From assembly GCF_007280415.1 (NCBI RefSeq), contig NZ_VKKU01000001.1, positions 744,001-808,000 on the forward strand: a stretch of DNA of 64,000 nucleotides, given 5' to 3'. The stretch comes from Sphingorhabdus contaminans. Its GTDB lineage: Bacteria; Pseudomonadota; Alphaproteobacteria; Sphingomonadales; Sphingomonadaceae. Every line of letters begins with the position of its first letter. The stretch's first letter is position 1. Of this stretch, positions 40,979 through 57,817 are shown one piece after another. Under the pieces are notes generated by a model. That model did no database searches and was not told where the DNA came from. It saw only the letters and a list, made by a program, of their open reading frames with translations. Both the position numbers and the translations under genes were made by a program.

Positions 40979-42448
40979 TTAGGTTTTCATGATATGCCAA
41001 CGCCTGTCCGGTTCGATGACGGCCAGCCAGCCATGATCTATCAGTGTTGCAATTGCGTTCAAGCGCAACGGTTTGCTCGACCTTGTGACGTTTGGCCCGC
41101 GTTGCTGAATATCCCGCATTGAAACTTCATTTTGCGGCCAGCTATCGCAGAGCCATTCCCGCAGCTTTTCGGCGATCTGGGTCTCTTGCGAAACGGTTGC
41201 AATGTTGGCCAGCCGTGCGGCCTCTGAAAGGTAGAAGCGCGCTAGCTTAATCGCGTCGGCCATGAACGATCCGTTGACCTGGGTAGCGGCGATATCATGC
41301 CATAACGTAAGCACACCCGCGATCCGCGCTGCCTGCTCGGCTGACTTACTTGCATGGCCACGGATAGGTTCATAAATCCCCCCTTTTGCTTGGGCGATTT
41401 CGATTTCGTCACTATAGTCGATTAGCAGCGCCCGCGCATCGGCAGCCAGCAACAGCGTTCGTGGCTCTAACGCCCTTGTTTCTGGGTCCATTGGCAATTT
41501 GCGTGCAAGAATGCTGCGCATCCTAAACTCGAAATGCTTGGCGGCAGCACCCAATTCCCTAGCATTATGGTGCAGTCGTTTGCCAATGTTGGAGGGCGGC
41601 TTGCATATTAAGCAGCGAGGTAAGAATCCGCTTCCGTCCGCCAAAGGATCGGCCAGTAAGCCGTCGGCGATAACAGGTTGGATCATCAAGTGTAGACTTA
41701 GGCGGCGGCCATAAAGTGTTATGCTTCCATCGCCGCTCCGCGTCCGCTTGATCGGCTTTGCCATCCATAGGTTATTCAATGCGGCAAGCGTCTTTTGAGC
41801 GTTGTCTTTCGACATTGCGTGGCCGCCCAGAAACTGCCCGCCTTCGTCGGAGAACAGCCCAAGTGATGGCTGGCCGGTCGCGAACAGCTTAGTGAGGCCT
41901 TCGAATGTAGGTTCTGTTACCAGCCGATCGGTCGACGGTGGCTCGACAGGCGCCGTGCCCAATGCGTTCAAATCAGCGACGCTAGCTCTGCCCGACTTAA
42001 TCTTGTTACGAACAGCTTGGAGACTCTCGTCATAAAATACTTTGGCATTAAACCATGCTTGGCGAGTGGGAGCATTTTCGCGGATCTGCTCTTTTTCAAA
42101 ATCCTCGACCGGCTTCATGACTGGCTCATCGCAACTACTTTTCCGTTCGCCGGATTCAGCGACAGTGAGGCAGAACAGCGAAAGCGGTCGGTTTCCCCCA
42201 AGCGTCTCGACGTCTGCAAATCCTTGCACGGCAAGGGCAGCAGCGGCCAAGGCCGATTGAGCGGGCAGGGCGACCGGCGCTTGGGTTTTACCCTGCAATG
42301 CCCGCACGATACCGCTGAGGCCCGACGCGTCCAGTGCATCAATCGGATAATCCGCGATTGCTGGATATTCCGGCATGATCGGGATTGGCTGGCGAGGTGC
42401 AATTTCCGATGCATCGCTTAAGCGCGATTTTAGATCTGACGTGACCAT
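40979..42448 (-). CDS. DUF3987 (YfjI-like) replication protein
   Basis: A 489-aa protein of the DUF3987 family often found with phage/island primases: LCLTVAESGERKS-type Walker-like region (FCLTVAESGERKSSCDEPVM), SLGLFSDEGGQFLGGHAMS, and a C-terminal helical domain. The start ATG 42448 overlaps the last base of the primase gene, so the two are coupled. It probably has a helicase-like or origin-related role with the primase; not experimentally defined to my knowledge. Confidence 0.75.
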   Translation of the reverse strand: MVTSDLKSRLSDASEIAPRQPIPIMPEYPAIADYPIDALDASGLSGIVRALQGKTQAPVALPAQSALAAAALAVQGFADVETLGGNRPLSLFCLTVAESGERKSSCDEPVMKPVEDFEKEQIRENAPTRQAWFNAKVFYDESLQAVRNKIKSGRASVADLNALGTAPVEPPSTDRLVTEPTFEGLTKLFATGQPSLGLFSDEGGQFLGGHAMSKDNAQKTLAALNNLWMAKPIKRTRSGDGSITLYGRRLSLHLMIQPVIADGLLADPLADGSGFLPRCLICKPPSNIGKRLHHNARELGAAAKHFEFRMRSILARKLPMDPETRALEPRTLLLAADARALLIDYSDEIEIAQAKGGIYEPIRGHASKSAEQAARIAGVLTLWHDIAATQVNGSFMADAIKLARFYLSEAARLANIATVSQETQIAEKLREWLCDSWPQNEVSMRDIQQRGPNVTRSSKPLRLNAIATLIDHGWLAVIEPDRRWHIMKT

Positions 42449-43425
42449 TATTCACCCGCCCTTGCTGCAACCGACATTGCTTCGGCGTTGAAATCTTTAT
42501 GGCCTAACGCTGGACGAATGATGCGGACAGAATAACCCTTGGAGGCGAGAGACTCGCCGCATTCTTGCGCAGCCTTCCGGCCAGGTGCGTCGTTGTCGGC
42601 GCCGATAATTAACTTGCGAACGCTTTCTGGCAGGGCAAGCGCCGCAAGATTAGACGTGCCAGCGGTCGCCCAAGTAGGCTGCCCTAATTCTTGCGCCAGT
42701 GTCAGGCCATCCTCTAAGCCTTCGCAGATCGCGACCGTATCAATCGGATTGCCGATCCTAATTGCACCGCCACGAATGCTGCCTAACGATAACTTTGGCT
42801 TTGCGACCGCAGCTTTGCCGATGCCAACGGGGTCGAGATAGGTTCGCTGAATTCCGATAGGTTCACCCGCTACATTTTGCACAAGCGCGACGAGCACCGG
42901 ATATTGCGGCCCAGATTTGCCGTAATGCAGCCGGGTGAAGCGTATTGTCGGCGGCAGGGGCATGGTGATGGCCCGCAACCGCAGATAGGCCTCCGCTGGC
43001 GTGCCCGTGGCGTCCTGTGCGGCTTCCCAGATCGCTAGCGCTTCCGGCGTCCGATCATCCTTCGGCGCGCGGTCTAAAATCGCGGGCGAATAAACAGCCT
43101 TTGGCAACATATCGCCGCCCAGCCGGTCGACGGCTTCAGGAAATGTGTATCCATACGCTTTTCGCACAAAATCGATCACATCGCCCTGCCAACCGCAGCC
43201 GAAGCATTTCGCGCGCTCATCGCCAGCATAGATCGTAAAGCTTGGAGTGCGTTCGGAGTGGAAAGGGCAAAGGCCTTTCCATTCTCTGCCAACCTTGCGG
43301 AGCTTCACCATCGTGCCTGCAATAGTCGACAATGGATTGAGTGCCCTTACGGCGTCAACATCGACTGGATTGCGTAGCAATGTAGCGGTTGTAGCGGGGG
43401 GTGTGGAAAATTGCAGCGCGGTCAC
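42448..43425 (-). CDS. CHC2 zinc-finger/Toprim primase
   Basis: A 325-aa primase. The N-terminal CHC2 zinc finger is complete (CPFH...CFGC, then GWQGDVIDFV), and the Toprim domain shows the catalytic Glu in AICEGLEDGL and the metal pair in IIGADNDAPGRKA. It would prime island DNA synthesis with the DUF3987 partner. Its start overlaps the preceding small gene by four bases (ATGA). Codons 9-16 of this gene contain the GCTACA triple repeat shared with the cargo arm. Confidence 0.85.
   Translation of the reverse strand: MTALQFSTPPATTATLLRNPVDVDAVRALNPLSTIAGTMVKLRKVGREWKGLCPFHSERTPSFTIYAGDERAKCFGCGWQGDVIDFVRKAYGYTFPEAVDRLGGDMLPKAVYSPAILDRAPKDDRTPEALAIWEAAQDATGTPAEAYLRLRAITMPLPPTIRFTRLHYGKSGPQYPVLVALVQNVAGEPIGIQRTYLDPVGIGKAAVAKPKLSLGSIRGGAIRIGNPIDTVAICEGLEDGLTLAQELGQPTWATAGTSNLAALALPESVRKLIIGADNDAPGRKAAQECGESLASKGYSVRIIRPALGHKDFNAEAMSVAARAGE
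43374..43395 (-). repeat. GCTACA triple repeat, copy 2 (inside primase gene)
   Basis: On the minus strand this reads GCTACA-ACC-GCTACATTGCTAC, matching 19 of 22 bases of the plus-strand repeat at 33635-33656 with identical spacing. It is coding here (part of PPATTATLL at the primase N-terminus). Confidence 0.5.
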
Positions 43426-43739
43426 TTGCTGATCTCGCCACGCAACCAGGCATCGGCTTGCTCGATTGAATATGAGGGGAGGGAAGGCTGGCCATCGCCG
43501 ATCAAATAGATCGGATAAACTTGGCCACTTTCGCCAGCGCGACGGGCGGCGTTTGCTATCATGAACGGGTGAATCGGCTGGCCGATTTTAAATTCATGAT
43601 CGCCTGCCAACAATTGCAGCGGCATTGGGTTGTTGGTCCATTTCCAAAGCAGCGGCTGGGCGCATTTAACGCGGCCTCCGGTCGATTTTTGCAGTATTTC
43701 ACGGCAAAGTAATTCGACACTTTCTTGCTCGCGACTCAT
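43422..43739 (-). CDS. Hypothetical protein of the replication operon
   Basis: A 105-aa protein with no family recognised (QPLLWKWTNNPMPLQLLAG, QPIHPFMIANAARRAGESG). It overlaps the AlpA-like gene upstream and the primase gene downstream by four bases each, so it is translated as part of one coupled cluster with them and probably takes part in island replication or control. Confidence 0.6.
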   Translation of the reverse strand: MSREQESVELLCREILQKSTGGRVKCAQPLLWKWTNNPMPLQLLAGDHEFKIGQPIHPFMIANAARRAGESGQVYPIYLIGDGQPSLPSYSIEQADAWLRGEISK

Positions 43740-43918
43740 GCTGCGCCACCTTCGATCAAACGGCGCAAGCTTTCCGCTTTGACAATTGTGCGTTTGCCTA
43801 TTTTGACGGTTTCCAAGCGACCGTCTTTAATCAGTTCGTACAGTTTGGTGCGCTTGATAGAAGAAACGGCGCAAGCATCGTTTACGCCGTATCCTAATGG
43901 GCTGGGTCTATTGTTCAT
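43736..43918 (-). CDS. AlpA/excisionase-like helix-turn-helix protein
   Basis: A 60-aa MerR-type winged helix protein: GVNDACAVSSIKRTKLYELIKDGRLETVKIGKRTIVKAESLRRLI, matching small excisionase/AlpA regulators of P4-like islands. It heads the replication operon and would control excision or integrase expression. GGAAACC-type purine sequence lies upstream of ATG 43918, with no strong ribosome site. Confidence 0.75.
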   Translation of the reverse strand: MNNRPSPLGYGVNDACAVSSIKRTKLYELIKDGRLETVKIGKRTIVKAESLRRLIEGGAA

Positions 43919-43997
43919 TTTCGGTTTCCCTTGTGCGTTATTGCACGGGAGACCAATTAGTCAGGCAGCAGACCGCCTTGGGGGATATAAAATTTGG

Positions 43998-44594
43998 TTA
44001 GCGAAAAAATTCTATCAAGGCGTCGCCTGACCCAAAATGATTCAGCTTCCGGTCGCCGTGCAACCTCATATCGTTCGCACGGCTCAGAACCGGATCAATC
44101 CATTGAGTTTCAAGCAATAGGTGCTCTAACGGTCTTGACATATTGATAGCATAACGAACCGAGGCTAAATGTCCGTTCATGGCTGCCGCAAGATGCAAAA
44201 CAGGGCGGAATCGACGCCAATATCGTTTGTAGATTTGCTTTCTGTCATCTTCGCCTGTGGCATAAGTTGCCAGTCGCCGAGCGACGGTTCCCCACGATAC
44301 CGGCCAAGGGGCGATCTCGATGCCATCTTTCACAATTGATAGTGTTGAAATTTGACCTGCATTGAGTGCCTCAAAGAATAACTGATCAATTCGCCGCATT
44401 CGGGATTGCGTAGTTTTATTCTCGACGGCTTTCCCGCTCTCATACCTCGGCGTCTGACCGCAGAGGCGTTGGAGATAGCCATATTGAGTGTGCACGGCCC
44501 GCTCCCTTTGCTTTTCATCGTCGGGATAAGCCAACCACGCAACGATTTGCCGCGCGGCTGCATGGTTATCGGTGGAAAGACGAACAATCGGCAT
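43998..44594 (-). CDS. Hypothetical island protein
   Basis: A 198-aa protein, no family recognised. It has a basic, helical middle (KQIYKRYWRRFRPVLHLAAAMNGH) and a C-terminal segment ending DALIEFFR. ATG 44594 is preferred over the in-frame upstream start because GGAG lies five bases before it. It lies between the integrase side and the AlpA-like gene on the same strand. Confidence 0.6.
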   Translation of the reverse strand: MPIVRLSTDNHAAARQIVAWLAYPDDEKQRERAVHTQYGYLQRLCGQTPRYESGKAVENKTTQSRMRRIDQLFFEALNAGQISTLSIVKDGIEIAPWPVSWGTVARRLATYATGEDDRKQIYKRYWRRFRPVLHLAAAMNGHLASVRYAINMSRPLEHLLLETQWIDPVLSRANDMRLHGDRKLNHFGSGDALIEFFR

Positions 44595-44689
44595 TAATAC
44601 TCCGCCTCCCAAGCGGATCCCAAGTTATGACGGGGAAGCGCGTGGGATGCGCGCTTGTCGGATGGCCTGCCTATCCCCGCCAAAGACGA

Positions 44690-44884
44690 TCAGTGGATCG
44701 TGCGCTGCCTATCCGCTGTGATCTGGTTCAACATTTCGAGAGACTCGGCCTGATCGGCTAGCGAGCATCCGATAAATTTACGGACAAATGTGACCGTTTG
44801 GCCATCGCTGAGAACAGCGCCGCCCACAGATTCAAACTGTTCAATCCACTCGGCCGCAACTTGCATTTGATCACGATTTGGCAT
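44690..44884 (-). CDS. Small hypothetical protein next to integrase
   Basis: A 64-aa soluble protein (QVAAEWIEQFESVGGAVLSDGQTVTFVRKFIGCS). It starts 25 bases after the integrase stop on the same strand, with AGAAGGGAATTGAAATG as ribosome site. It is probably cotranscribed with the integrase. Function unknown. Confidence 0.5.
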   Translation of the reverse strand: MPNRDQMQVAAEWIEQFESVGGAVLSDGQTVTFVRKFIGCSLADQAESLEMLNQITADRQRTIH

Positions 44885-44909
44885 TTCAATTCCCTTCTAC
44901 AAAAAGATG

Positions 44910-46154
44910 TTATCCAGCCGATCCGCGAATTGGGCTGACATTGGATTCGGTGCCGGTGCCGGCCTCACAAAAAGCCGCCCAATCTGCCATTAGTCGGCGG
45001 CGCTTTTCAAACAGATCCCCACGTCGATAAGCGGCCTCTGATTTGTTGCCTATAGTGTGCGCCAGCGCCATTTCGCAGACTTCGTGAGCGTACGCAGTGC
45101 ATTCGGCGCTCCAATCCCGAAACGCGGATCGAAAGCCGTGCACGGTGCAGTCGACCTTCATACGGCGCAATAGCATCGACATGGCCATGCCAGACAACGC
45201 GCGCCCCTTTTCTGCAGGAAAAAGCCAATCCTTACCCTGTGCCTTAGTGATCTTTAGAATCTCGATCGCACGGGCGGATAGGGGGACTCGATGCTCCTTG
45301 CCCGCTTTCATCCGCTCGGCTGGAATAATCCAAATAGCCTTATCCATATCGACTTCGCGCCATGTTGCGCCAAGGGCTTCGCTTGTGCGCGCCGCTGTCA
45401 GAATAACGAATTCAAGCGCCAGCGCTGCCATTGCCTCCCGTTCCCGCAATTCGGCGATGAATGCACCGATTTCGGTATAGGTCATCGCCTTGTGATGGCC
45501 GCGCTGCAGTTTGGCGCGTTTTGGCAATATCTGGGCAATATGTCCGCGCCAGCGGGCAGGGTTGTCGCCTTCGCGGTATCCCCGCGCCTTAGCTGCATCA
45601 AGCACGATTTCAATACGACCGCGTAATCGGCTGGCTGTTTCCGGTTTGTCTTGCCATATCGGTTCCAGAATTTTCAAGACGTGCGGTGTGCCAATGCTTG
45701 CGACCGACAAATCACCGATAATAGGGTAAACATAGGTTGATAGAGTGTTGCGCCATTGCTGCCGATGCTTGCCATTGCGCCAGCCACCTTCGTTGGCTTT
45801 TATATACGACTCGGCGACTTGCCTGAATGTGATTCGGGAAATCTCTGCAGCCTGCGCGGCGGCGACCGCCTCTTCGGCCTCGCGTTGGCGCTCCGCAAGG
45901 GGGTCAATACCTGCTTTCACCTTTAATCGCAGTGCGGCTGCCAGATCGCGCGCCGATGATAACGATATGGCATCATGCCCAGCGGTGCCTAAACCAATAT
46001 CCCGCGATTTGCCCTTTAGCATAAAGCGGTAGACCCACGACCGAGATCCGCTTTCCTTGACGAGCAAGTAAAGCCCACCACCATCGGCGTGTCTTCCTGG
46101 TTTGGCCGACTTCACCGTCATTGCGGTAAGTGCATTGCTCAATTTTCGAGGCAT
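44910..46154 (-). CDS. P4-type tyrosine integrase
   Basis: A 414-aa site-specific recombinase: N-terminal arm-type DNA-binding (DUF4102) domain (AKPGRHADGGGLYLLVKESG, SWVYRFMLKGKSRDIGLG), core-binding middle, and catalytic domain with Arg in TAARTSEALG, HxxR in HGFRSAFRDW, His in LAHTIGN and the Tyr nucleophile in SEAAYRRGD. ATG 46154 fits the family N-terminus. It lies 173 bases inside attR and reads away from it, as in tRNA-targeting islands. Confidence 0.92.
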   Translation of the reverse strand: MPRKLSNALTAMTVKSAKPGRHADGGGLYLLVKESGSRSWVYRFMLKGKSRDIGLGTAGHDAISLSSARDLAAALRLKVKAGIDPLAERQREAEEAVAAAQAAEISRITFRQVAESYIKANEGGWRNGKHRQQWRNTLSTYVYPIIGDLSVASIGTPHVLKILEPIWQDKPETASRLRGRIEIVLDAAKARGYREGDNPARWRGHIAQILPKRAKLQRGHHKAMTYTEIGAFIAELREREAMAALALEFVILTAARTSEALGATWREVDMDKAIWIIPAERMKAGKEHRVPLSARAIEILKITKAQGKDWLFPAEKGRALSGMAMSMLLRRMKVDCTVHGFRSAFRDWSAECTAYAHEVCEMALAHTIGNKSEAAYRRGDLFEKRRRLMADWAAFCEAGTGTESNVSPIRGSAG

Positions 46155-46212
46155 GATTTCAAAATTCCCTAAAAGGTTCCACAATAATACGCCGGTTTTA
46201 GGGGAACGCAAG

Positions 46213-46428: not shown

Positions 46429-47151
46429 ATGCGTAACCGATTCTTGCTTCTCATTCTATCTACCGCGCTTGCCTCTTGCGGCAGCTCGCAACTGGGCGGT
46501 GCAGGCAGTGTTTCGGACGTGAAAGTCGTGGAAAGTGATGTGCTTCCCGAGCCTACGCGTCTTGATTTGTTCGAGCAGAATCGCCCCTATCTGATTGGTC
46601 CGTTTGACAAATTGACCATCGATGTGTTCGGCATTGAAGAGTTGAGCAAACAGGAAGTCCAGACCGACGCCGGCGGACGTATTTCTTTCCCCTTGGCCGG
46701 TATCATTACGGCTGCGGGCAAAACGCCCGGCGAATTGGAAGAAGAGATAGAGAGCCGTTTGCGCGGCCAATATGTTCGCGATCCGCAGGTGACCGTCAAT
46801 CTGAAAGAGACCGTTAGCCAGGTTGTGACCATTGACGGTCAGGTGCGCGAACCCGGCCTTTATCCCGTTATCGGCCGCATGACGCTGATGCGTGCGGTTG
46901 CCGTCGCCAAAGGTACGGCGGAATTTGCAAAGTTGGATGATGTCGTCATTTTCCGCACCGTAAACGGCCAGAAAATGGCCGCGCTCTACAATTTGAAGGC
47001 GATCCGCCGGGGTTATTATAACGACCCGGAAGTGTTCGCGAACGATGTCGTCGTCGTCGGGGATTCGCAGGCCCGCCGCCTGTTCAAGGATGCCCTGCAA
47101 ATTGCACCGACATTGCTGACGCCGCTGGTCTATATTCTCACCAATAACTGA
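46429..47151 (+). CDS. Polysaccharide export lipoprotein (Wza/GumB-like)
   Basis: A 240-aa outer-membrane polysaccharide export protein. The signal peptide ends in a lipobox (LSTALASC, Cys17). The export domain reads YLIGPFDKLTIDVFGIEELS, GRISFPLAGIITAAGKTPGELEEEI, and the SLBB-like segment VTIDGQVREPGLYPVIGRMTLMRAVAVAKG. It would form the outer-membrane channel for an exopolysaccharide. It could serve the XrtA-type polysaccharide whose glycosyltransferase and regulators lie at 2-9 kb. The gene sits just outside attR and directly upstream of rpfF on the same strand. Confidence 0.88.
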   Translation: MRNRFLLLILSTALASCGSSQLGGAGSVSDVKVVESDVLPEPTRLDLFEQNRPYLIGPFDKLTIDVFGIEELSKQEVQTDAGGRISFPLAGIITAAGKTPGELEEEIESRLRGQYVRDPQVTVNLKETVSQVVTIDGQVREPGLYPVIGRMTLMRAVAVAKGTAEFAKLDDVVIFRTVNGQKMAALYNLKAIRRGYYNDPEVFANDVVVVGDSQARRLFKDALQIAPTLLTPLVYILTNN

Positions 47152-47315: not shown

Positions 47316-48254
47316 ATGGCGTTCCACTCCCGCGTCGTTGATGGCGCATTAGAAAAACCGGTTCTGGCGATGCAGGAACGCATGCTTGGCGTCCCCATCA
47401 CCGAACGGAATTTTCGCGAAATATCGCTGCGTCACGACAAGGAAGACCGCATTTTCTGGTGTTTCATGGACCAGACAGGCCGTCCGAGCTATACCTACAG
47501 CTTAGGTGCCGAGATTCAGCAGGTTCAGGACTGGATTGCGAACAACTACACCCTGCCGGCCAATGGCGGCCCCGACGATTTGCGCTATTTTGTCTGCGGA
47601 TCCAAAACACCCGGTATCTACAATCTGGGCGGCGATTTGCGGCATTTTGCGGAATGTATCCGCAACCGCGATCTGGCGGCGATGCGCACATATGCGGAAA
47701 CCTGTGTTCGCATGCAATTTGCCAACGCAAACGGCTTCGGCGCGCCGATTATCACCATGGCACTTGTTCAGGGCGATGCCCTGGGTGGCGGTTTCGAACA
47801 TGCGCTTGCATTCGATATTCTGGTCGCGGAACGGAGCGCCCGCATGGGTCTTCCGGAGATTATCTTCAATCTGTTCCCGGGAATGGGCGCCTACAGCTTC
47901 CTTCTGCGCAGGGTAGGACGCAAGGTTGCGGAGAACTTCATTCTAGAAGGCAAGATTCACAGTGCGGAAGAACTGCACGAATTAGGCATCGTCGACATCT
48001 TGGTCGAGGATGGTCAGGGCGAGGCCGCGATCATCGATTATTGCCAAAAGGGGCAGGCGCGCTTTGCAGCGGAACGGGCGGTCTATCTCTCGCGGCGGGT
48101 GACGAGCCCCGTCGAACTTGAAGAATTGCTCCGTATTACAAATATTTGGGCGGAAACCGCCATGACCTTGACCGAGGCCGATGTCCGCAAGATGGAGCGG
48201 CTTGCCGATGCCCAGGAACGGCGCATCCAGCGGAGTCTGAAAGCCGTTACTTGA
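47316..48254 (+). CDS. rpfF: DSF synthase RpfF (crotonase family)
   Basis: A 312-aa enoyl-CoA hydratase-fold enzyme that would make a diffusible cis-2-unsaturated fatty acid signal from acyl-ACP by dehydration and thioesterase action. RpfF-type segments are clear: YNLGGDLRHFAECIRNRD, VQGDALGGGFEHALAFD and GLPEIIFNLFPGMGAYSF. The two catalytic glutamates are Glu161 and Glu181, twenty residues apart like Glu141/Glu161 of Xanthomonas RpfF. The gene converges on the rpfC-like kinase gene and overlaps its 3' end by eight bases, which is the Xanthomonas arrangement. Confidence 0.88.
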   Translation: MAFHSRVVDGALEKPVLAMQERMLGVPITERNFREISLRHDKEDRIFWCFMDQTGRPSYTYSLGAEIQQVQDWIANNYTLPANGGPDDLRYFVCGSKTPGIYNLGGDLRHFAECIRNRDLAAMRTYAETCVRMQFANANGFGAPIITMALVQGDALGGGFEHALAFDILVAERSARMGLPEIIFNLFPGMGAYSFLLRRVGRKVAENFILEGKIHSAEELHELGIVDILVEDGQGEAAIIDYCQKGQARFAAERAVYLSRRVTSPVELEELLRITNIWAETAMTLTEADVRKMERLADAQERRIQRSLKAVT

Positions 48255-50751
48255 CCGCGGCGAGCGGGGCTGGTGCGGCGTAACTGTCCAGCATCGCCTT
48301 CAGCGCGTCGAGGACTTTGTCGAGTTCGGATTCTATTTTTGCCAGATAGACAAAGCGGTTTTCGTCAAACTCCGCTTCGGTAACCCGTTCCAGACGGCCA
48401 CATATCTCACCCAGCGTTTTCGCGCCCATATTGTTGCTCGAACTCTTGAACGCATGGGCGCAGAAGCGGAAATCGCGGACTTTCCCCTGATGAACCGACT
48501 GCCGCAACGGTTCCAACGTCTGTGCGGCGTCTTCGAAAAATCCTTCGATCATGCCGCGCACGAACTGGTCGTCACCGATGGACTTCAAATAGCTGAGCTG
48601 GCTCGCATCAATCGCATCGGAAACGGCGTGCTGCTGCGGGTTCAGGGGCACGACGACCTGCAACGGGTCGCTGGCATCCGCAATGACAGGCACATTTTCA
48701 GGATCACCCCCGCATAGCTGTTCAATTGCCGACAGCAGCAATTTTGCGTCAACGGGCTTGGTAATACGCATATCCATGCCCGCCGATTTGCAGCGTGTTT
48801 CGGTTTCGGCGGTCGCGTCCGCAGTCACGCCGATAATCGGCAGATGTTGCCGCCCGCCCTCGATCTGCCGCCACATCATGCAGGCATCGATACCGTTCAG
48901 CCGGGGCATGTTGATATCGAGCAGCAATATGTCAAACGATCCGGATTCAAGCGCATCCAGCGCCTCGTCCCCGTCGGTGACCATGACGACTTCATGACCT
49001 GCCGAACCTAATATGGCGCCCAAAACATTGCGGTTTGTGCGGTTGTCGTCGGCCACGAGTATCTTGCGGCTGCTATAGCTGACCGGTGCTGCAACCTCTT
49101 CGCTGTCGCCGTTGCGGAAATGAGAAGCGAAGGAACAGCCTATACGGATGGCGCTGCGCAATTCCGCAAAATTGGCGGAAGCGGGCAGGATCGAGGCGAA
49201 TGCGGCGCGCAACGCCACCTCCTGCAGATCGAAATCGCGGTCGTTGGAAATAAGAACCGGTGCAACTTCGGCTGCGGCAAATTGTTGCCAGATCGGGCTG
49301 TCGGGGTCGATTTGCCGCGCAAGATCGTGGGAGATAAGCGCGACCTTGAACCGTTGCAGGCCCTGATTGGCGATAATCGACGCGAGTTGCTCCGACGACT
49401 GACAGTTCACATGCTGCAGGATGAAATTGTCGGCAGAACGCGCCTCGCTCAGCAATTCGGGCGCAATTTCGCCGAAGGAGACGATGTGGACGATGTCCGT
49501 CGTGCTCGACAACCAGTCGGTCTCTTCGGCGGCAACCATCTTTACGGGCACTTCAATGCGGAAGGTGCTGCCCTGGCCAAGGGTACTTTTGGCCGATATC
49601 CGACCATTGACCTGCTCAACAAGCTGTTTGCAGATCGCAAGGCCGAGCCCCGTGCCACCAAAGCGGTTCAGCACGGTATCGTCGGCCTGCTGGAAAGGCT
49701 GGAAAATCCGTTCGATTGCGGCCTCGGCAATGCCAATTCCGGTGTCCGAAACGGTGAACCAGATAATGTCTTTACCGCCCTCATTCGCAAAGCCGCTGTG
49801 CACCGAGATGCTGCCCGCTTCGGTGAATTTCAGCGCATTTCCAACCAGATTGAGCAGAATATTGCGCAAGATATCGGTCGGCCCCTCGACCGGACGATCG
49901 GACAGCGGCTCGGCTTGCAAGTGAATGGCGAGCCCTTTGTCCTCGATCCGGACGGCCATGATGTCGCGGATTTCGGTGAGCAGTTCTGTCGGGCGGAATG
50001 TCGAGGTTTTGATCTGTGCCGATCCCGTGCCTGTTTTGGCGACTTCAATCAGTTGTTCGATCAGATGCAGCAGATGTTCGCCTGCCAACACGCTGGCCTC
50101 GACCATGTCTTTCTGGTTGCGGGGCATATCGGACTGGCGCAGATGATTGCCATATCCGATGATGGCGTTGAGCGGCGTGCGCAGTTCATGGCTGACGCTC
50201 GCCAAAAAGTAGCTTTTTGCCTTGCTGGCCAGTTCTGCCTGTTCTTTCGCCAGGGAAATCTTGCGGATGAGCGTCGAACAATAGGCCGGGATGATCAGCA
50301 GCGCGAGAGCAAGGGCGCATCCCAGATAGAGATTCTGCTGCCAATAATCTGTCGACAGGACAACCACGCCAAATGTCAGTGTCGACAGCGCAGCCGCGAT
50401 AAACAGCCATTTTACGCCGTATCGGAAACCATTGCCCAATATCATCCACAAGATGATGGGGTAGAAGATCGACATATGCTCCGGCTCGCGCAGCATCACT
50501 GCGAAGGCCATCATCACATCGAGGATGATGGCGGCAAGCCACCGTTCGCCGGGTCGCCAGATTTCCTTCTTCTGCATCGCATACAAGGCGGCATTGAAGG
50601 ACAGATAGGTAAAGAATGCCGTGAAAATCACGACGTCAAAGGCAAAGAAGTAACAGCCAATCCCGGACGCCCCGCCCATCACGAGCCGGTTGCGCAGGAT
50701 TTCCTGCTCCGGACTGAGATCGGCCCGGAGTTTTTTCAGATAGGCAATCAT
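48247..50751 (-). CDS. rpfC: RpfC-type hybrid sensor histidine kinase
   Basis: An 834-aa kinase: ~165 N-terminal residues with about five membrane helices, including LWMILGNGFRYGVKWL and a YLGCALALALLIIPAY helix that closely resemble, from memory, the RpfC DSF sensor region; HisKA with His188 in VSHELRTP; ATPase (NLVGNALKFT, DTGIGI, GGTGLGLAI); a degenerate middle region; receiver (ILVADDN, phosphosite in LLLDINMP); and C-terminal HPt with His in CAHAFKSSSNNMGA. The domain order is that of RpfC. It is translationally coupled (ATGA) to the upstream GGDEF-EAL gene. Confidence 0.85.
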   Translation of the reverse strand: MIAYLKKLRADLSPEQEILRNRLVMGGASGIGCYFFAFDVVIFTAFFTYLSFNAALYAMQKKEIWRPGERWLAAIILDVMMAFAVMLREPEHMSIFYPIILWMILGNGFRYGVKWLFIAAALSTLTFGVVVLSTDYWQQNLYLGCALALALLIIPAYCSTLIRKISLAKEQAELASKAKSYFLASVSHELRTPLNAIIGYGNHLRQSDMPRNQKDMVEASVLAGEHLLHLIEQLIEVAKTGTGSAQIKTSTFRPTELLTEIRDIMAVRIEDKGLAIHLQAEPLSDRPVEGPTDILRNILLNLVGNALKFTEAGSISVHSGFANEGGKDIIWFTVSDTGIGIAEAAIERIFQPFQQADDTVLNRFGGTGLGLAICKQLVEQVNGRISAKSTLGQGSTFRIEVPVKMVAAEETDWLSSTTDIVHIVSFGEIAPELLSEARSADNFILQHVNCQSSEQLASIIANQGLQRFKVALISHDLARQIDPDSPIWQQFAAAEVAPVLISNDRDFDLQEVALRAAFASILPASANFAELRSAIRIGCSFASHFRNGDSEEVAAPVSYSSRKILVADDNRTNRNVLGAILGSAGHEVVMVTDGDEALDALESGSFDILLLDINMPRLNGIDACMMWRQIEGGRQHLPIIGVTADATAETETRCKSAGMDMRITKPVDAKLLLSAIEQLCGGDPENVPVIADASDPLQVVVPLNPQQHAVSDAIDASQLSYLKSIGDDQFVRGMIEGFFEDAAQTLEPLRQSVHQGKVRDFRFCAHAFKSSSNNMGAKTLGEICGRLERVTEAEFDENRFVYLAKIESELDKVLDALKAMLDSYAAPAPLAAVK

Positions 50752-52895
50752 TGAACGCCCGTTTCGGGCCGGGATTTGCCCGCCCCGAACAAATCGCGCA
50801 ATTCAGTGACGGCAAGCGGACGACCGAGGAGATATCCTTGGACTTCGTCACAACCCGAAGCGCGCAGAAGCGCGAACTGCGCCTCATTCTCGACGCCTTC
50901 GGCCACCACCCGCATATCGAGCGCATGCGCCAAATGGGCAATGGTCGAAATGATCGCGCGGTCGGCGGAGGAATTTTCGATGCGGGCAATAAAGGTCTGG
51001 TCGATCTTCAACCGCGTGGCAGGCAGGTCACGCAGATATTGGAGCGACGAATAGCCCGTTCCGAAATCGTCAATAGAAATGCCGATCCCGCCGGACTGAA
51101 GCGTTTCCAGCTGGTCATGCACTTCCTGATTATGGTCGAGCAGAAGTTCTTCGGTGATCTCGATCGAAAGCTTGCCGGGCGCGATATTATATTTGGCCAC
51201 TTTCTCGAGAATTTCAGCGCTCATATTGCCGAACTGGAATTGCTTGGGCGAGACATTGACCGCCACGGGGGGAAGGGTAATTCCCTGCGCCGCGAACTCG
51301 GCAATTTGCGCGCAGGCCCGGTTCACCACCCATTGGCCGATATTGCCGATCAATCCGGAATCATTGGCGACGCGGATGAAATCCTGCGGAACCAGCCGCC
51401 CGCGAACGGGATGCTGCCAACGGAGCAGGGCTTCGAGGCCTGCATATTCGCCGCTCGCAATGTCAACAATCGGTTGATATTCCAGAAAAAGCTGGTCGCT
51501 GTGCAGGGCATCGCGCAAATCGCTTTCGACGCCGGCATTCAACTGGGCAATCTGGTTCATCCGCGGCGAGAAGAAGCAGAATCGGTTGCGACCGGAGGAT
51601 TTGGCTTCATACATCGCAAGATCTGCCAGGCGCAGCAGTTCGTCCGATGAATTGCCATCTTCAGGGATCAGGGCGATACCGATACTCGCCCCGATCAATT
51701 GTTCTACGCCGCCAACGGAATAGGGTTCACCAATCTGCGTCAGCAATTTCGAACAGATTGCGACGACTTCTTCCTGGCTATCCAGATTTTGCAGGACGAT
51801 GGCGAATTCGTCCCCGCCGATCCGCGCGGCAAAACCGTTATTGTCGAGGGCATTGCTCAGCCGTTCGGCAACCTGGCGGAGCAGCATGTCGCCCGCCTGG
51901 TGGCCGCGCGTATCGTTGATGACCTTGAACCGGTCGAGGTCAAGAAGCAGCAAAGCCGCGCCTTTTCCGGTGGTATTGCAGTTATCGATGGTGATACGCA
52001 TCCGGTCCGACAACAGGGTGCGGTTAGGCAGGCCCGTCAGCATGTCGTGCAGCGCCAGATGGGTCCGGTGTTCCTCGGCAAATTTGCGCGCGGTGATATC
52101 GAGACCGGTGGTCAGGATACCGATGGTCTGATTGTCTTTGTTCAGCAGGGGCGATTTGTTGCAGTGGAAGGTGAGCTCGACATCTTCACTGATGAATTTT
52201 TCTTCATAGTTCGGAATCGAAATGCCGGTTTCCAATATGACATTGTTGCGGCGCTTTTCCCGTTCCACCAGATCGGGCGGTAATATTTCCGAAATCGACT
52301 GGCCAACCAGTTCCTCCGGATCGCGGCCAAAAAGGGCGGCCTGATAGGAATTTAAGAAAAGGAATTTACCATTGCGGTCGGTGGCATTGATCAGGATCGG
52401 CGTGGTATCGATGATCTGTTCGAGCATCGATTTCCCGCTGGGTTCATTGCCTTCCTCATCTTCGTCCGAACTCGCACGGTTATTGGTGGCGAGCGATTTT
52501 TTGAGTTCCTGCTGTTTCTGATACTGGCCCAGCAGCAAAATGGCGCGGTCGCGAAACTCGATATGCGACACCGGACTTTGCAGGAAGTCGGTTGCACCGG
52601 CATCAAGGGCGCTGATCCGGCACTCACGGTCCTGCCGTGCTGTGATGATGATGGCGGGAATGTGCGCTCCGACCGTGCGTGCGCGAAATTTGGAAATGAA
52701 CGTGGCGCCGTCCATTTCCGGCATGCGGTAATCGACAATCAGCAAATCCGCATGTTCGGTTTCAAGCCATTTCAGCGCTTCCACGGCGCTGTGGAAGCAG
52801 GTCGCGGAGTATTCCGGACCCATCATAGCGACATATTGCGCATAGACACGCAAATTGGTCGAACGATCATCAACTATGACTATGCGCGCCTGCAT
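50748..52895 (-). CDS. REC-PAS-GGDEF-EAL response regulator (in place of RpfG)
   Basis: A 715-aa regulator: receiver with phosphosite Asp55 in LLIVDYRMPEMDG; PAS domain around residues 150-275 (LINATDRNGKFLFLNSYQAALFG); GGDEF domain with intact RIGGDEFAIVL and DMLTGLPNR; EAL domain with intact EALLRW, DDFGTGYSSL, KIDQTFI and AEGVENE. Both cyclic-di-GMP synthesis and hydrolysis motifs are present. It is the first gene of the operon with rpfC, where Xanthomonas has the HD-GYP protein RpfG. The RpfC HPt is the likely phosphodonor. PAS-GGDEF-EAL recalls RpfR of Burkholderia/Cronobacter, but with a receiver added. Confidence 0.88.
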   Translation of the reverse strand: MQARIVIVDDRSTNLRVYAQYVAMMGPEYSATCFHSAVEALKWLETEHADLLIVDYRMPEMDGATFISKFRARTVGAHIPAIIITARQDRECRISALDAGATDFLQSPVSHIEFRDRAILLLGQYQKQQELKKSLATNNRASSDEDEEGNEPSGKSMLEQIIDTTPILINATDRNGKFLFLNSYQAALFGRDPEELVGQSISEILPPDLVEREKRRNNVILETGISIPNYEEKFISEDVELTFHCNKSPLLNKDNQTIGILTTGLDITARKFAEEHRTHLALHDMLTGLPNRTLLSDRMRITIDNCNTTGKGAALLLLDLDRFKVINDTRGHQAGDMLLRQVAERLSNALDNNGFAARIGGDEFAIVLQNLDSQEEVVAICSKLLTQIGEPYSVGGVEQLIGASIGIALIPEDGNSSDELLRLADLAMYEAKSSGRNRFCFFSPRMNQIAQLNAGVESDLRDALHSDQLFLEYQPIVDIASGEYAGLEALLRWQHPVRGRLVPQDFIRVANDSGLIGNIGQWVVNRACAQIAEFAAQGITLPPVAVNVSPKQFQFGNMSAEILEKVAKYNIAPGKLSIEITEELLLDHNQEVHDQLETLQSGGIGISIDDFGTGYSSLQYLRDLPATRLKIDQTFIARIENSSADRAIISTIAHLAHALDMRVVAEGVENEAQFALLRASGCDEVQGYLLGRPLAVTELRDLFGAGKSRPETGVQ

Positions 52896-54235: not shown

Positions 54236-55522
54236 ATGGGGCAGTATAAACGGGATAATCTTGCGCCCTTGCAACTCCATGTTCCTGAACCGAAATTCCG
54301 TCCGGGCGACAAAGCCGATTTCAGTGATATCGTGATCCCGGAGGTCGACGCGATTCCGCGTCCCGACGAACATGCCGCGCCTGCGGATATTCACGGGCTT
54401 GCCTATGGGCTGGTGCGGGTGATGGGTGATGATGCCAAAGCGTCGGGTAGCTGGAACCCGGGGCTAAGCGCCGAAACGCTGCGGCTGATGCTGCGCAAGA
54501 TGCTGACGCTGCGGGCGTTTGACGACCGCATGTTCCGCGCGCAAAGGCAGGGCAAGACCAGCTTTTACATGAAGTCCTACGGGGAAGAGGCAACATCGGT
54601 TGCGACCACCATGGCGTTGCACCGCGATGACATGTGTTTTCCGAGCTATCGCCAGCAAGGTATTCTTATTACACGTGATTATCCTCTGGTTGATATGATG
54701 AACCAGATTTATTCCAACCGTGGTGACCGGTTGAAGGGACGGCAATTGCCGATCATGTATTCGGCCAAGGATTACGGCTTTTTCAGCATTTCCGGGAATT
54801 TGACGACCCAATATCCGCAGGCGGTGGGTTGGGCGATGGCCTCGGCTTCGCGCGCGGACACACGGATCGCTGCGGTCTGGTGCGGAGATGGCTCGACCGC
54901 GGAAGGTGACTTCCACAGCGCCATGACCTTTGCGGCGGTCTATAACGCGCCGGTAATCTTCCAGGTCGTGAACAACCAATGGGCGATTTCGTCCTTTTCG
55001 GGCTTTGCCGGCAGCGAACGGACAACCTTTGCCGCACGTGCAATCGGCTACGGTATTGCGGGGCTGCGCGTGGACGGAAACGACGCACTGGCGGTTTACG
55101 CCGCGATGCAATGGGCGGCCAACCGCGCGCGGACGAACAACGGGCCAACGCTAATTGAATATTTCACCTATCGCGGGGAAGGGCATTCCACTTCCGATGA
55201 TCCCAGCGCCTATCGCGCCGCGGAGGAATATGCCCTGTGGCCGCTGGGCGATCCGGTAGAACGGTTGAAGGCGCATCTGATCGCGCTGGACGAATGGAGC
55301 GATGCGCAGCATGAGGCGCTGGTCGCGGAATTGTCCGATGAAGTGAAGGCAAAGCAAAAGGAAGCCGAGCAGAATGGTATTTTGGGGCATGGCCTCCACC
55401 ATCCGTTCGAAACCATGTTTGAAGATGTCTTCGAAGAAATGCCCGCCCATCTGAAGGAGCAATGCGCGCAGATGCTGGAAGAACAGCGCGACAAATTCGG
55501 CCCTGAATGGGAGGCGCGCTGA
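54236..55522 (+). CDS. bkdA1: Branched-chain 2-oxoacid dehydrogenase E1 alpha
   Basis: A 428-aa thiamine-diphosphate-dependent decarboxylase subunit acting on oxo acids of Val, Leu and Ile. The TPP motif is clear (WCGDGSTAEGDFHS ... VVNN), with the phosphorylation-loop-like segment YRGEGHSTSDDPSAYR. The long N-terminus and KTSFYMKSYGEEATSVATT favour the branched-chain over the pyruvate type. GGAGG lies six bases before the ATG. First gene of a tight E1alpha-E1beta-E2 operon; no E3 (lpd) is included in the window. Confidence 0.92.
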   Translation: MGQYKRDNLAPLQLHVPEPKFRPGDKADFSDIVIPEVDAIPRPDEHAAPADIHGLAYGLVRVMGDDAKASGSWNPGLSAETLRLMLRKMLTLRAFDDRMFRAQRQGKTSFYMKSYGEEATSVATTMALHRDDMCFPSYRQQGILITRDYPLVDMMNQIYSNRGDRLKGRQLPIMYSAKDYGFFSISGNLTTQYPQAVGWAMASASRADTRIAAVWCGDGSTAEGDFHSAMTFAAVYNAPVIFQVVNNQWAISSFSGFAGSERTTFAARAIGYGIAGLRVDGNDALAVYAAMQWAANRARTNNGPTLIEYFTYRGEGHSTSDDPSAYRAAEEYALWPLGDPVERLKAHLIALDEWSDAQHEALVAELSDEVKAKQKEAEQNGILGHGLHHPFETMFEDVFEEMPAHLKEQCAQMLEEQRDKFGPEWEAR

Positions 55523-56550
55523 TGTCCGGGGACTCCGTTAAAACCATGAACATGATCGAGGCGATCAACAGCGCGCTGGACGTGATGTTGGGCAAGGATC
55601 CCGATGTCGTCATCATGGGCGAAGATGTCGGCTATTTTGGCGGCGTATTCCGCGCGACGGCAGGATTGCAGAAAAAGCATGGCAAAACCCGGGTGTTCGA
55701 TACACCAATCAGCGAATGCGGCATTATCGGCGTCGGTGTCGGCATGGCTGCCTATGGCTTGCGCCCCGTGCCGGAAATCCAGTTTGCCGACTATATCTAC
55801 CCCGGCCTTGACCAGCTGGTCAGCGAGGCGGCACGGATGCGGTACCGTTCGGCCAATGACTTCATCTGTCCCATGACCGTGCGTTCGCCCTTTGGTGGCG
55901 GGATTTTCGGTGGCCAGACGCACAGCCAGAGCCCCGAAAGCCTGTTCACGCATGTTTGCGGGATCAAAACCGTCATTCCCGCGACGCCCTATGACGCAAA
56001 GGGTTTGCTGATTGCGGCGATCGAGGACAATGATCCGGTTGTCTTCTTTGAACCCAAACGCATCTATAACGGGCCATTCACCGGCTATTATGATCGCCCG
56101 GTCGAGCCCTGGTCCAAACATGACGGCAGCGCGGTTCCGGAGGGCTATTACCGCATCGACCTCGGCAAAGCGTCCATTGTGCGCGAAGGTCAGGCGGTTA
56201 CGGTGCTGACCTACGGTACTATGGTGCACGTCGTAAAAGCCGTGGTCGCCGAACATGGCATTGATGCCGAGATTATCGACCTCAGGACTTTGCTGCCCCT
56301 CGACATCGATACGATCGAAGCTTCGGTCAAAAAGACGAGCCGCTGCATGGTCGTGCATGAAGCGACGCGGACCAGCGGTTTTGGGGCCGAGCTTTCGGCG
56401 CAGGTTCAGGAACGCTGCTTCTACCATCTGGAAGCTCCGGTCGAACGGGTGACCGGATTTGACACGCCTTATCCCCACAGCCTTGAATGGGCCTATTTCC
56501 CCGGACCGGTGCGCCTTGCCCGTGCGTTCGACAAGATCATGAAGGATTGA
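55522..56550 (+). CDS. bkdA2: Branched-chain 2-oxoacid dehydrogenase E1 beta
   Basis: A 342-aa transketolase-like beta subunit: MNMIEAINSALDVML, VIMGEDVGYFGGVFRAT, FDTPISECGIIGVGVGMA, and FFEPKRIYNG. The C-terminal transketolase domain includes VHEATRTSGFGAELSA. ATG 55522 overlaps the E1 alpha stop (TGATG) and has GGAGG eight bases upstream. With E1 alpha it forms an alpha2beta2 heterotetramer. Confidence 0.93.
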   Translation: MSGDSVKTMNMIEAINSALDVMLGKDPDVVIMGEDVGYFGGVFRATAGLQKKHGKTRVFDTPISECGIIGVGVGMAAYGLRPVPEIQFADYIYPGLDQLVSEAARMRYRSANDFICPMTVRSPFGGGIFGGQTHSQSPESLFTHVCGIKTVIPATPYDAKGLLIAAIEDNDPVVFFEPKRIYNGPFTGYYDRPVEPWSKHDGSAVPEGYYRIDLGKASIVREGQAVTVLTYGTMVHVVKAVVAEHGIDAEIIDLRTLLPLDIDTIEASVKKTSRCMVVHEATRTSGFGAELSAQVQERCFYHLEAPVERVTGFDTPYPHSLEWAYFPGPVRLARAFDKIMKD

Positions 56551-56554
56551 ACTG

Positions 56555-57817
56555 ATGGCCAAATTCACATTCAACCTGCCCGACATTGGCGAAGGCATTG
56601 CCGAGGCGGAGATCGTGGCCTGGCACGTCAAGGTGGGTGATCAGATTTCCGAAGACCAGCCGCTTGCCGATATGATGACCGACAAGGCTACCGTTGAAAT
56701 GGAAAGCCCGGTCGCAGGTGTTGTGACACGGCTTGCGGGCGAGGCGGGCGATGTCATCGCCATTGGCTCCATGCTTGTGGAAATCGAAACGGTGACTGAC
56801 GTCAGTGACGTCAGTCCGGCAGCAGACGCAAAAGCAGAAGAACCGGCCGCGGTTGCAACGGTCGAAGATGAAGTCCCGCAGGCACCCGAACCAGAGGCCG
56901 TTTCTGCTCCTCCTGTCGTGGAAAAGCCTCAAGAAACCTCAGTTTCCGAGCATCGCCCTGTGGTAACTGCATCACCTGCGGTCCGCGCGCGCGCGAAGGA
57001 TCTCGGGGTTGATTTGACTGACGTCAAGGCGGCAGGCGGGCATGTTCGCCACGCCGATCTCGACGCCTATCTGAACTACGGATCGGGGCAGGGCTATCGT
57101 CCTGCACATAGTTCGGCAAAGCGTGATGACGAGGTGATCAAGGTAATCGGCATGCGCCGCCGGATTGCCGACAATATGGCCGCATCCAAGCGCCATATCC
57201 CGCACTTTACCTATGTCGAAGAAATCGACGTAACCGCCATCGAGGCCATGCGTGCGGACCTGAATGATAACCGCGGGACGAAGCCGAAGCTGACACTTTT
57301 GCCGATGCTGATCGTGGCTATTTGCAAAACAATTCCGCAATTTCCGATGCTTAATGCCCGTTTCGATGATGAGGCCGGCGTTGTTACGCGGCACGGATCG
57401 GTGCATCTGGGCATGGCAACGCAAACGCAGGCCGGTCTGATGGTTCCGGTTATCCGTGATGCGCAGGACAAGAATATCTGGCAATTAGCGAGTGAAATCA
57501 GTCGTTTGGCGGACGCAGCGCGCAATGGTACTGCAAAAAGCGAGGAGCTTTCCGGTTCCACCTTGACGATCACGTCCCTCGGCCCGCTTGGTGGCATTGC
57601 GACAACGCCCGTCATCAACCGTCCGGAAGTGGCCATCATCGGGCCCAACAAGATTGTCGAGCGGCCGATGTTCGTCGGCGACAGCATCGAGGTACGCAAG
57701 CTTATGAACCTGTCGATCAGTTGCGATCACCGGGTCGTCGATGGCTGGGATGCGGCAAGCTATGTGCAGGCGCTCAAAAAACTAATCGAAACGCCGGTTC
57801 TGCTGTTCGCCGATTAG
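56555..57817 (+). CDS. bkdB: Branched-chain 2-oxoacid dehydrogenase E2 (dihydrolipoamide acyltransferase)
   Basis: A 420-aa core subunit: one lipoyl domain with the modified Lys in DKATVEMESP, an Ala/Pro/Glu-rich linker, an E3-binding domain (SPAVRARAKDLGVDLTDVKAAG), and a catalytic domain ending in SCDHRVVDGWDAASY with the active-site His and Asp. A single lipoyl domain is typical for this class. Its last four bases overlap the end of the convergent outer-membrane protein gene. Confidence 0.94.
   Translation: MAKFTFNLPDIGEGIAEAEIVAWHVKVGDQISEDQPLADMMTDKATVEMESPVAGVVTRLAGEAGDVIAIGSMLVEIETVTDVSDVSPAADAKAEEPAAVATVEDEVPQAPEPEAVSAPPVVEKPQETSVSEHRPVVTASPAVRARAKDLGVDLTDVKAAGGHVRHADLDAYLNYGSGQGYRPAHSSAKRDDEVIKVIGMRRRIADNMAASKRHIPHFTYVEEIDVTAIEAMRADLNDNRGTKPKLTLLPMLIVAICKTIPQFPMLNARFDDEAGVVTRHGSVHLGMATQTQAGLMVPVIRDAQDKNIWQLASEISRLADAARNGTAKSEELSGSTLTITSLGPLGGIATTPVINRPEVAIIGPNKIVERPMFVGDSIEVRKLMNLSISCDHRVVDGWDAASYVQALKKLIETPVLLFAD

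Follow-up and report, generated by a model that had tools for sequence, protein, structure and literature searches.

Two arrangements of diffusible signal factor (DSF) signaling serve as models. In Xanthomonas, the synthase gene rpfF converges on an operon for the hybrid kinase RpfC and the regulator RpfG, whose receiver is joined to an HD-GYP output, whereas in Burkholderia and Cronobacter rpfF lies beside the gene of RpfR, a PAS-GGDEF-EAL protein that is itself the receptor and has no receiver. Both RpfG and RpfR lower cyclic di-GMP (c-di-GMP), as stated in the excerpts of the two sources (PMC4504480, PMC4698668). Outside the xanthomonads, an RpfF, RpfC, and RpfG set with a proposed c-di-GMP output occurs in Leptospirillum as a same-direction cluster with an HD-GYP output (PMC8357829, excerpt). 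An RpfC–RpfG pair has also been reported in Alphaproteobacteria from KEGG (PMC8895600, excerpt), so kinase homologues in this class were not unknown before. Here, we analyzed a 64,000-nt stretch of the Sphingorhabdus contaminans genome (the window; C1:744001-808000 of 3.29 Mb in two contigs), which carries a crotonase gene, a hybrid kinase gene, and a REC-PAS-GGDEF-EAL regulator gene. It is reasonably likely, as judged from sequence, that this triad is a DSF-family signaling locus in which the RpfC phosphorelay has a GGDEF-EAL-type c-di-GMP enzyme as its end point. In the open-access literature, which covers few subscription journals and was available in part, an RpfC with a GGDEF-EAL or histidine-kinase regulator was not found described; within that limited literature, the locus is a previously undescribed variant of RpfF/RpfC signaling.

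The first gene encodes an RpfF-family crotonase and putative cis-2-unsaturated fatty acid synthase (47316..48254, plus strand, 312 aa), assigned by Pfam, NCBIfam, its PDB match, and its residues. It converges on the gene of the RpfC-type hybrid kinase (48247..50751, minus strand, 834 aa), assigned by Pfam, a sensor hidden Markov model (HMM), and the PDB match of its REC domain, and the two genes share 8 bp (48247-48254). An ATGA overlap (50748-50751) joins the kinase gene to that of the regulator on the same strand (50748..52895, minus strand, 715 aa), which was assigned an RpfG-type receiver by Pfam and trees. Coordinates and strands thus agree with the layout given in a first-pass annotation, and the Pfam domains confirm its description of a Xanthomonas layout and kinase with an exchanged output domain. 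Gene spacing was at most 150 bp in all 27 loci of GGDEF-EAL type compared (L045 and L066 are the same genome, counted twice in this set and among the 42 alphaproteobacterial loci discussed below). The locus shares with Xanthomonas the convergent rpfF and kinase-regulator operon, a homologous sensor, the phosphorelay domains, the receiver lineage, and the RpfF residues; it differs in having PAS-GGDEF-EAL instead of HD-GYP, in the loss of the receiver Lys, in mostly changed DSF-sensing residues, and in the lack of rpfH.

The crotonase matched ECH_1/ECH_2 in Pfam and scored 352 bits on NF006452 (PRK08788), above the cut-off of 177. Its best PDB matches were Xanthomonas RpfF 3m6m (E 3e-53) and the relative 7zq7, followed by 5fus (E 3e-43) and 6dgn, which is named RpfF (E 4e-43). 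The catalytic residues of RpfF are G86, G138, E141, and E161 in the numbering of Xanthomonas campestris pv. campestris (Xcc) (PMC9040811, excerpt). They correspond to G106, G158, E161, and E181 in the window and are kept in all 27 GGDEF-EAL-type loci, so both catalytic Glu residues that had been assigned to an RpfF-like synthase are present. The same residues are kept in nearly all loci of every layout (the L104 crotonase was excluded from these counts), so they do not set the GGDEF-EAL group apart. In a quick tree with long outgroup branches, 79 rpfF-type sequences were separated from the three other crotonases of the genome (Shimodaira–Hasegawa-like approximate likelihood ratio test, SH-aLRT, 100), which places the gene inside the RpfF family. 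The crotonase of S. profundilacus is 92% identical, and the nearest named relatives are from Sphingorhabdus.

Behind a membrane sensor (residues 1-181), the kinase contains HisKA, HATPase_c, Response_reg, and Hpt domains by Pfam, and H188 (HisKA), D612 (REC), K665, and H766 (Hpt) are all present. An HMM built from the sensors of HD-GYP-linked kinases detected every sensor whose kinase has a different partner, that of the window at E 7.4e-32 with a search space of 100,000, while none of 70 decoys (20 N-termini of kinase-less GGDEF-EAL proteins and 50 regulators) was matched. The best PDB match of the internal REC domain was RpfC 3m6m_D (E 8.7e-21). By homology, then, the window kinase is a true RpfC homologue, as had been proposed. 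The predicted structure of the sensor (50209-50751) has six long helices with a mean predicted local distance difference test (pLDDT) score of 92.7. RpfC is described with five membrane helices (PMC5391125, excerpt), so in the model the N-terminal segment could sit on either side of the membrane. A Foldseek search with the sensor model gave no match at E <= 0.001.

Pfam assigned Response_reg, PAS_4, GGDEF, and EAL domains to the regulator. Its receiver (residues 5-116; 52548..52883, minus strand; Pfam and alignment) retains D55 and has Ser107 (codon 52575-52577) in place of the conserved Lys. The receivers of rpfC-linked regulators grouped in a single clade (100/98), to the exclusion of 7 kinase receivers and 26 other receivers encoded in the window's genome; this tree held 18 of the 27 GGDEF-EAL-type, 13 of the 15 histidine-kinase-type, and 7 of the 8 HD-GYP-type sequences. 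Within it, the alphaproteobacterial sequences formed a subclade (96/96). When the best-matching receivers of 150 genomes were added, the clade was supported at 85 by a quick tree and at 97/80 by a careful one, from which seven long-branch sequences of the genome itself and three duplicates had been removed. L128, L134 (the locus itself), L144, and L146 (short or weak) were dropped from the receiver trees. Since the receiver falls in the RpfG lineage, the most fitting reading of the third gene is that of an RpfG receiver joined to a different output, and not of an RpfR. Foldseek with a REC-PAS model returned common receivers only. The PAS/PAS_4 domain (residues 157-271; 52083..52427, minus strand; Pfam) gave only weak matches in the PDB.

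The output domains were assigned by Pfam and alignment as GGDEF (residues 281-438; 51582..52055, minus strand) and EAL (residues 459-693; 50817..51521, minus strand). They were checked against the generally known EAL and GGDEF motif residues: the checked EAL active-site residues were present in all 27 GGDEF-EAL-type loci, and the GGDEF motif, present in the window, deviated in one of the 27. An RxxD inhibitory site (I-site) was looked for in the window GGDEF domain and was absent. The best PDB relatives of this part are of the catalytic type (MorA-like 4rnh, 351 bits). FimX, a c-di-GMP receptor for pili with a degenerate GGDEF-EAL part, has an identical domain order (PMC10333796, excerpt), but it is highly unlikely that the third protein is a non-enzyme of this kind: its GGDEF and EAL motifs are not degenerate, FimX entries rank far below in the PDB (7lkq, 97 bits), its receiver groups with RpfG, and FimX has another role and a distant sequence. 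The identity with FimX was therefore rejected.

The output had been called RpfR-like. The domain names bear this out, as does the position of rpfF beside a PAS-GGDEF-EAL gene with a c-di-GMP output, as in Burkholderia and Cronobacter. However, a kinase stands in between, and neither the head nor the GGDEF-EAL sequence points to RpfR; the latter is 39 and 38% identical to that of RpfR-type proteins (L103 and L105) versus 43% for L111, a paralogue from the window's own genome. RpfR membership was rejected because the N-terminus holds a receiver in place of an RpfF-interaction part and the GGDEF-EAL part is not specially like RpfR. Filing the protein as RpfG was likewise rejected, since the output is PAS-GGDEF-EAL and not HD-GYP. 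Elsewhere in the genome, a search for an HD-GYP output gave one HD_5 match (L106, C1:1016333) with no listed receiver match there, in a 457-aa open reading frame (ORF) beside an ORF reading like a PilZ protein. As this sole match has no receiver listed, no RpfG-like gene was found in the genome. It is possible that the kinase has an unlinked partner.

The variant is not confined to the window. All searches used either the crotonase of this locus or the Xanthomonas model as the seed, so relatives of these two are favored. Among 27 named loci found by crotonase alone, 17 had the triad in the same order and orientation, including a metagenome-assembled genome with a broken kinase frame (L042); of the rest, L056 had a triad whose third gene runs off the contig, the contigs of L052 and L054 end earlier, and seven had other layouts. 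In the family, a crotonase was found at E 1e-20 in 74 of 199 genomes. Their neighborhoods comprised 7 triads, 17 convergent GGDEF-EAL genes without a kinase, and 50 with neither (some near contig ends). The triad was also found outside the family in L058 (Plastoroseomonas), L097, L098, and L167. Thus, it recurs in Sphingorhabdaceae and scattered other Alphaproteobacteria. The three genes might be merely adjacent, with a crotonase of beta-oxidation next to a two-component system that has nothing to do with it, and many sphingomonads do have a crotonase without the kinase. This is very improbable, however, because the order and orientation of the triad are kept across distant families, crotonase and kinase share a joint phylogeny, and the housekeeping crotonases of the genome branch far off. 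Chance neighborhood was rejected on these grounds.

Kinase-less convergent GGDEF-EAL genes were seen in L072, L074, L080, and 14 more family loci. The proteins of L072 and L074 contain only GGDEF and EAL by Pfam and begin with what look like membrane helices; such partners may differ in kind from RpfR. In L150, a REC-type regulator gene is divergent to rpfF with no kinase nearby. Kinase-less crotonase copies in L169 and L175 adjoin, when read by eye, asparagine-synthetase-type amidotransferase-like and exosortase-type exopolysaccharide-cluster-like genes.

A third output, a histidine kinase, was found on the same REC-PAS head. The crotonase was detected at E 1e-40 in 24 of 385 genomes of the class: 15 loci had the kinase with a REC-PAS-histidine kinase gene, 2 the kinase with a REC-PAS-GGDEF-EAL gene (the window and L167), 3 were cut by contig ends, and 4 had no kinase in the fetched stretch. 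The REC-PAS-histidine kinase gene follows rpfF-rpfC in L147, L148, L149, L152-L155, L157-L162, and L164 and is divergent, 0.9 kb away, in L156. The regulator of L156 had no HATPase_c match and that of L153 a weak PAS match in Pfam scans, which covered 6 of the 27 GGDEF-EAL-type and 7 of the 15 histidine-kinase-type regulators. These loci (for example, L147, L149, and L152) share with the window rpfF, the kinase, and the REC-PAS head with a Lys-to-Ser/Thr receiver, but differ in their output and in a sensor that retains the R-x-D-S-E-x-x-Q motif. When 20 of the 62 matches of the phylum sample were fetched, 7 had HD-GYP, 2 GGDEF-EAL, 3 the kinase only, 3 GGDEF-EAL without a kinase, and 5 other arrangements.

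In a quick tree of crotonase and kinase without bootstrap, from which the regulator was omitted, the alphaproteobacterial loci stood apart (SH-aLRT 100), and the crotonase tree agreed with the main split (support 94). Histidine-kinase and GGDEF-EAL outputs require at least three changes on the joint tree, the starred branches forcing two, which implies repeated exchange of the output on an otherwise stable line. Bacteria may thus connect different outputs to a single signaling line: a conserved receiver would have been fitted with HD-GYP in gammaproteobacteria and, by way of a common PAS domain, with a histidine kinase or GGDEF-EAL in alphaproteobacteria.

According to the proposed mechanism, the RpfF homologue would make a cis-2 fatty acid, which the membrane kinase would perceive, passing phosphate from H188 through D612 to H766. 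Phosphate, or contact with the kinase, would then act on D55 of the RpfG-type receiver, where the Lys-to-Ser change predicts an altered switch. The PAS-GGDEF-EAL part would alter c-di-GMP, most likely lowering it through EAL hydrolysis on signal. Hydrolysis is favored because the EAL domain is fully intact and both RpfG and RpfR lower c-di-GMP; as GGDEF is also intact, synthesis is possible. To judge from the 3m6m complex, RpfF may in addition be bound and held in check by the internal REC domain of the kinase, as in Xanthomonas.

Several observations on the sensor, the receiver, and the crotonase weigh against this reading of the locus as a DSF-type phosphorelay ending in a c-di-GMP enzyme. 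DSF sensing by Xcc RpfC needs R15, D17, S18, E19, and Q22 (PMC5391125, excerpt). In the family alignment, the corresponding stretch of the window kinase lies before the first hydrophobic helix (SPEQEI, residues 13-18; 50698..50715, minus strand), and the five residues read D, S, P, E, and I, with only Glu19 (window E15) kept. Gln22 is Met or Ile in 20 of 21 GGDEF-EAL-type kinases and kept in one, whereas it is kept in 7/7 HD-GYP-type, 7/7 kinase-only, and 14/15 histidine-kinase-type kinases; L042 (broken kinase), L087, and L052 and L056 (contig ends) were left out of these counts. The kinase may hence read a different lipid or no ligand, in a private signaling line merely resembling DSF sensing, an explanation that we regard as possible but rather doubtful. 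The synthase and kinase genes are adjacent in every locus of this layout, Glu19 (50/50 aligned kinases) and the Arg after it are invariant, and the remaining sensor is conserved. Moreover, the N-terminal register is unsure in the window group, and an alternative one would pair window R9, D11, and Q16 with R15, D17, and Q22, although the family alignment does not pick it for the window kinase. The first-pass annotation had the kinase perceive DSF; with four of the five Xcc residues changed, classical DSF is less sure as the ligand. Because only E19 is kept and the register is unsure, we name the kinase an RpfC homologue that resembles RpfC in layout and do not claim a DSF-receptor role for it.

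The receiver raises a second difficulty. A canonical receiver has five conserved active-site residues (DD, D, T, and K), and one without the Lys is termed a pseudo-receiver (PMC12632262, excerpt). By that definition, the window receiver with its Ser107 is a pseudo-receiver. The annotation of all catalytic motifs as intact thus applies to the EAL, GGDEF, and kinase residues and fails for the receiver. The replacement is found in all 42 alphaproteobacterial rpfC-linked receivers (25 Ser and 2 Thr among 27 of GGDEF-EAL type; 14 Ser and 1 Thr among 15 of histidine-kinase type). In contrast, Lys is present in 26/26 other receivers of the genome, 7/7 kinase receivers, and 7/8 HD-GYP-type receivers (Arg in the eighth); it is also found in 27 of the 29 best-matching other receivers, where the Ser case is L098 again. 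The regulator might therefore lack a phosphate switch; in that case, the kinase would act chiefly on RpfF or through protein contact, and GGDEF-EAL would take its true input from the PAS domain. We hold this to be unlikely, if worth considering, as 27/27 GGDEF-EAL-type receivers retain the two acidic residues along with D55 and T85, the kinase retains all phospho-acceptor residues, and Lys substitutions in receivers need not abolish reactions (PMC12632262, excerpt). Loss of the Lys may leave a switch that is slow, weak, or independent of phosphate. In addition, one extra sequence, L238, which encodes REC-HD-GYP and lies approximately 3.4 kb from an rpfF match on the same contig of G288, falls inside the receiver clade of the careful tree, so the rpfC-linked set is not strictly on one side of a branch there.

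As for the crotonase, its score of 223 bits on the RpfF model NF053515 is below the cut-off of 550, and it is therefore named an RpfF homologue (PRK08788/NF006452) and not a member of NF053515. This cut-off marks a narrow group, since among the 398 genomes sampled from the phylum 62 matched at E 1e-40 and only 3 passed it; the rpfF genes beside the RpfR-type proteins L103 and L105 score about 183 bits. Furthermore, the gene is missing from 2 of the 4 sampled genomes of the window's genus, and 50 of the 74 crotonase-bearing family genomes have no adjacent kinase or GGDEF-EAL partner, so the crotonase also occurs outside an RpfC relay. A broader view, which we offer tentatively, is that Alphaproteobacteria carry plug-in outputs on a Lys-less RpfG-type receiver and PAS, and that the GGDEF-EAL branch with its changed sensor motif would read a different fatty-acid signal through a non-canonical switch.

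The neighborhood of the triad was also inspected. A polysaccharide export gene (Poly_export, SLBB; 46429..47151, plus strand) lies 164 bp upstream of rpfF and adjoins it in 5 of 26 other loci of the GGDEF-EAL-type layout; judging by its predicted function, it is a possible target of the signaling locus. A phage-type integrase and a primase-like gene (zinc ribbon, Toprim) adjoin the export gene (42448-46211), which suggests an integrated element. Behind thyA, beside the triad, are E1 alpha, E1 beta, and E2-like ORFs of the branched-chain 2-oxoacid dehydrogenase type (54236-57817), an enzyme that could supply branched acyl starters. Within the 1-4.4 kb fetched per locus, 12 of the 26 other loci had thyA near the regulator and 10 had E1 alpha there.

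If the proposed reading is true, DSF signaling would extend further among Alphaproteobacteria than expected from the Xanthomonas and Burkholderia models, and its final step would be exchangeable while the synthase, sensor, and receiver stay. The loci also offer a receiver family (42 sequences) that keeps the phospho-accepting Asp without the Lys. Two predictions follow from the locus, namely, phosphotransfer to a Lys-less receiver and a change of ligand that tracks Gln22. These loci would thereby form a natural set for studying the rewiring of a phosphorelay toward a different output.

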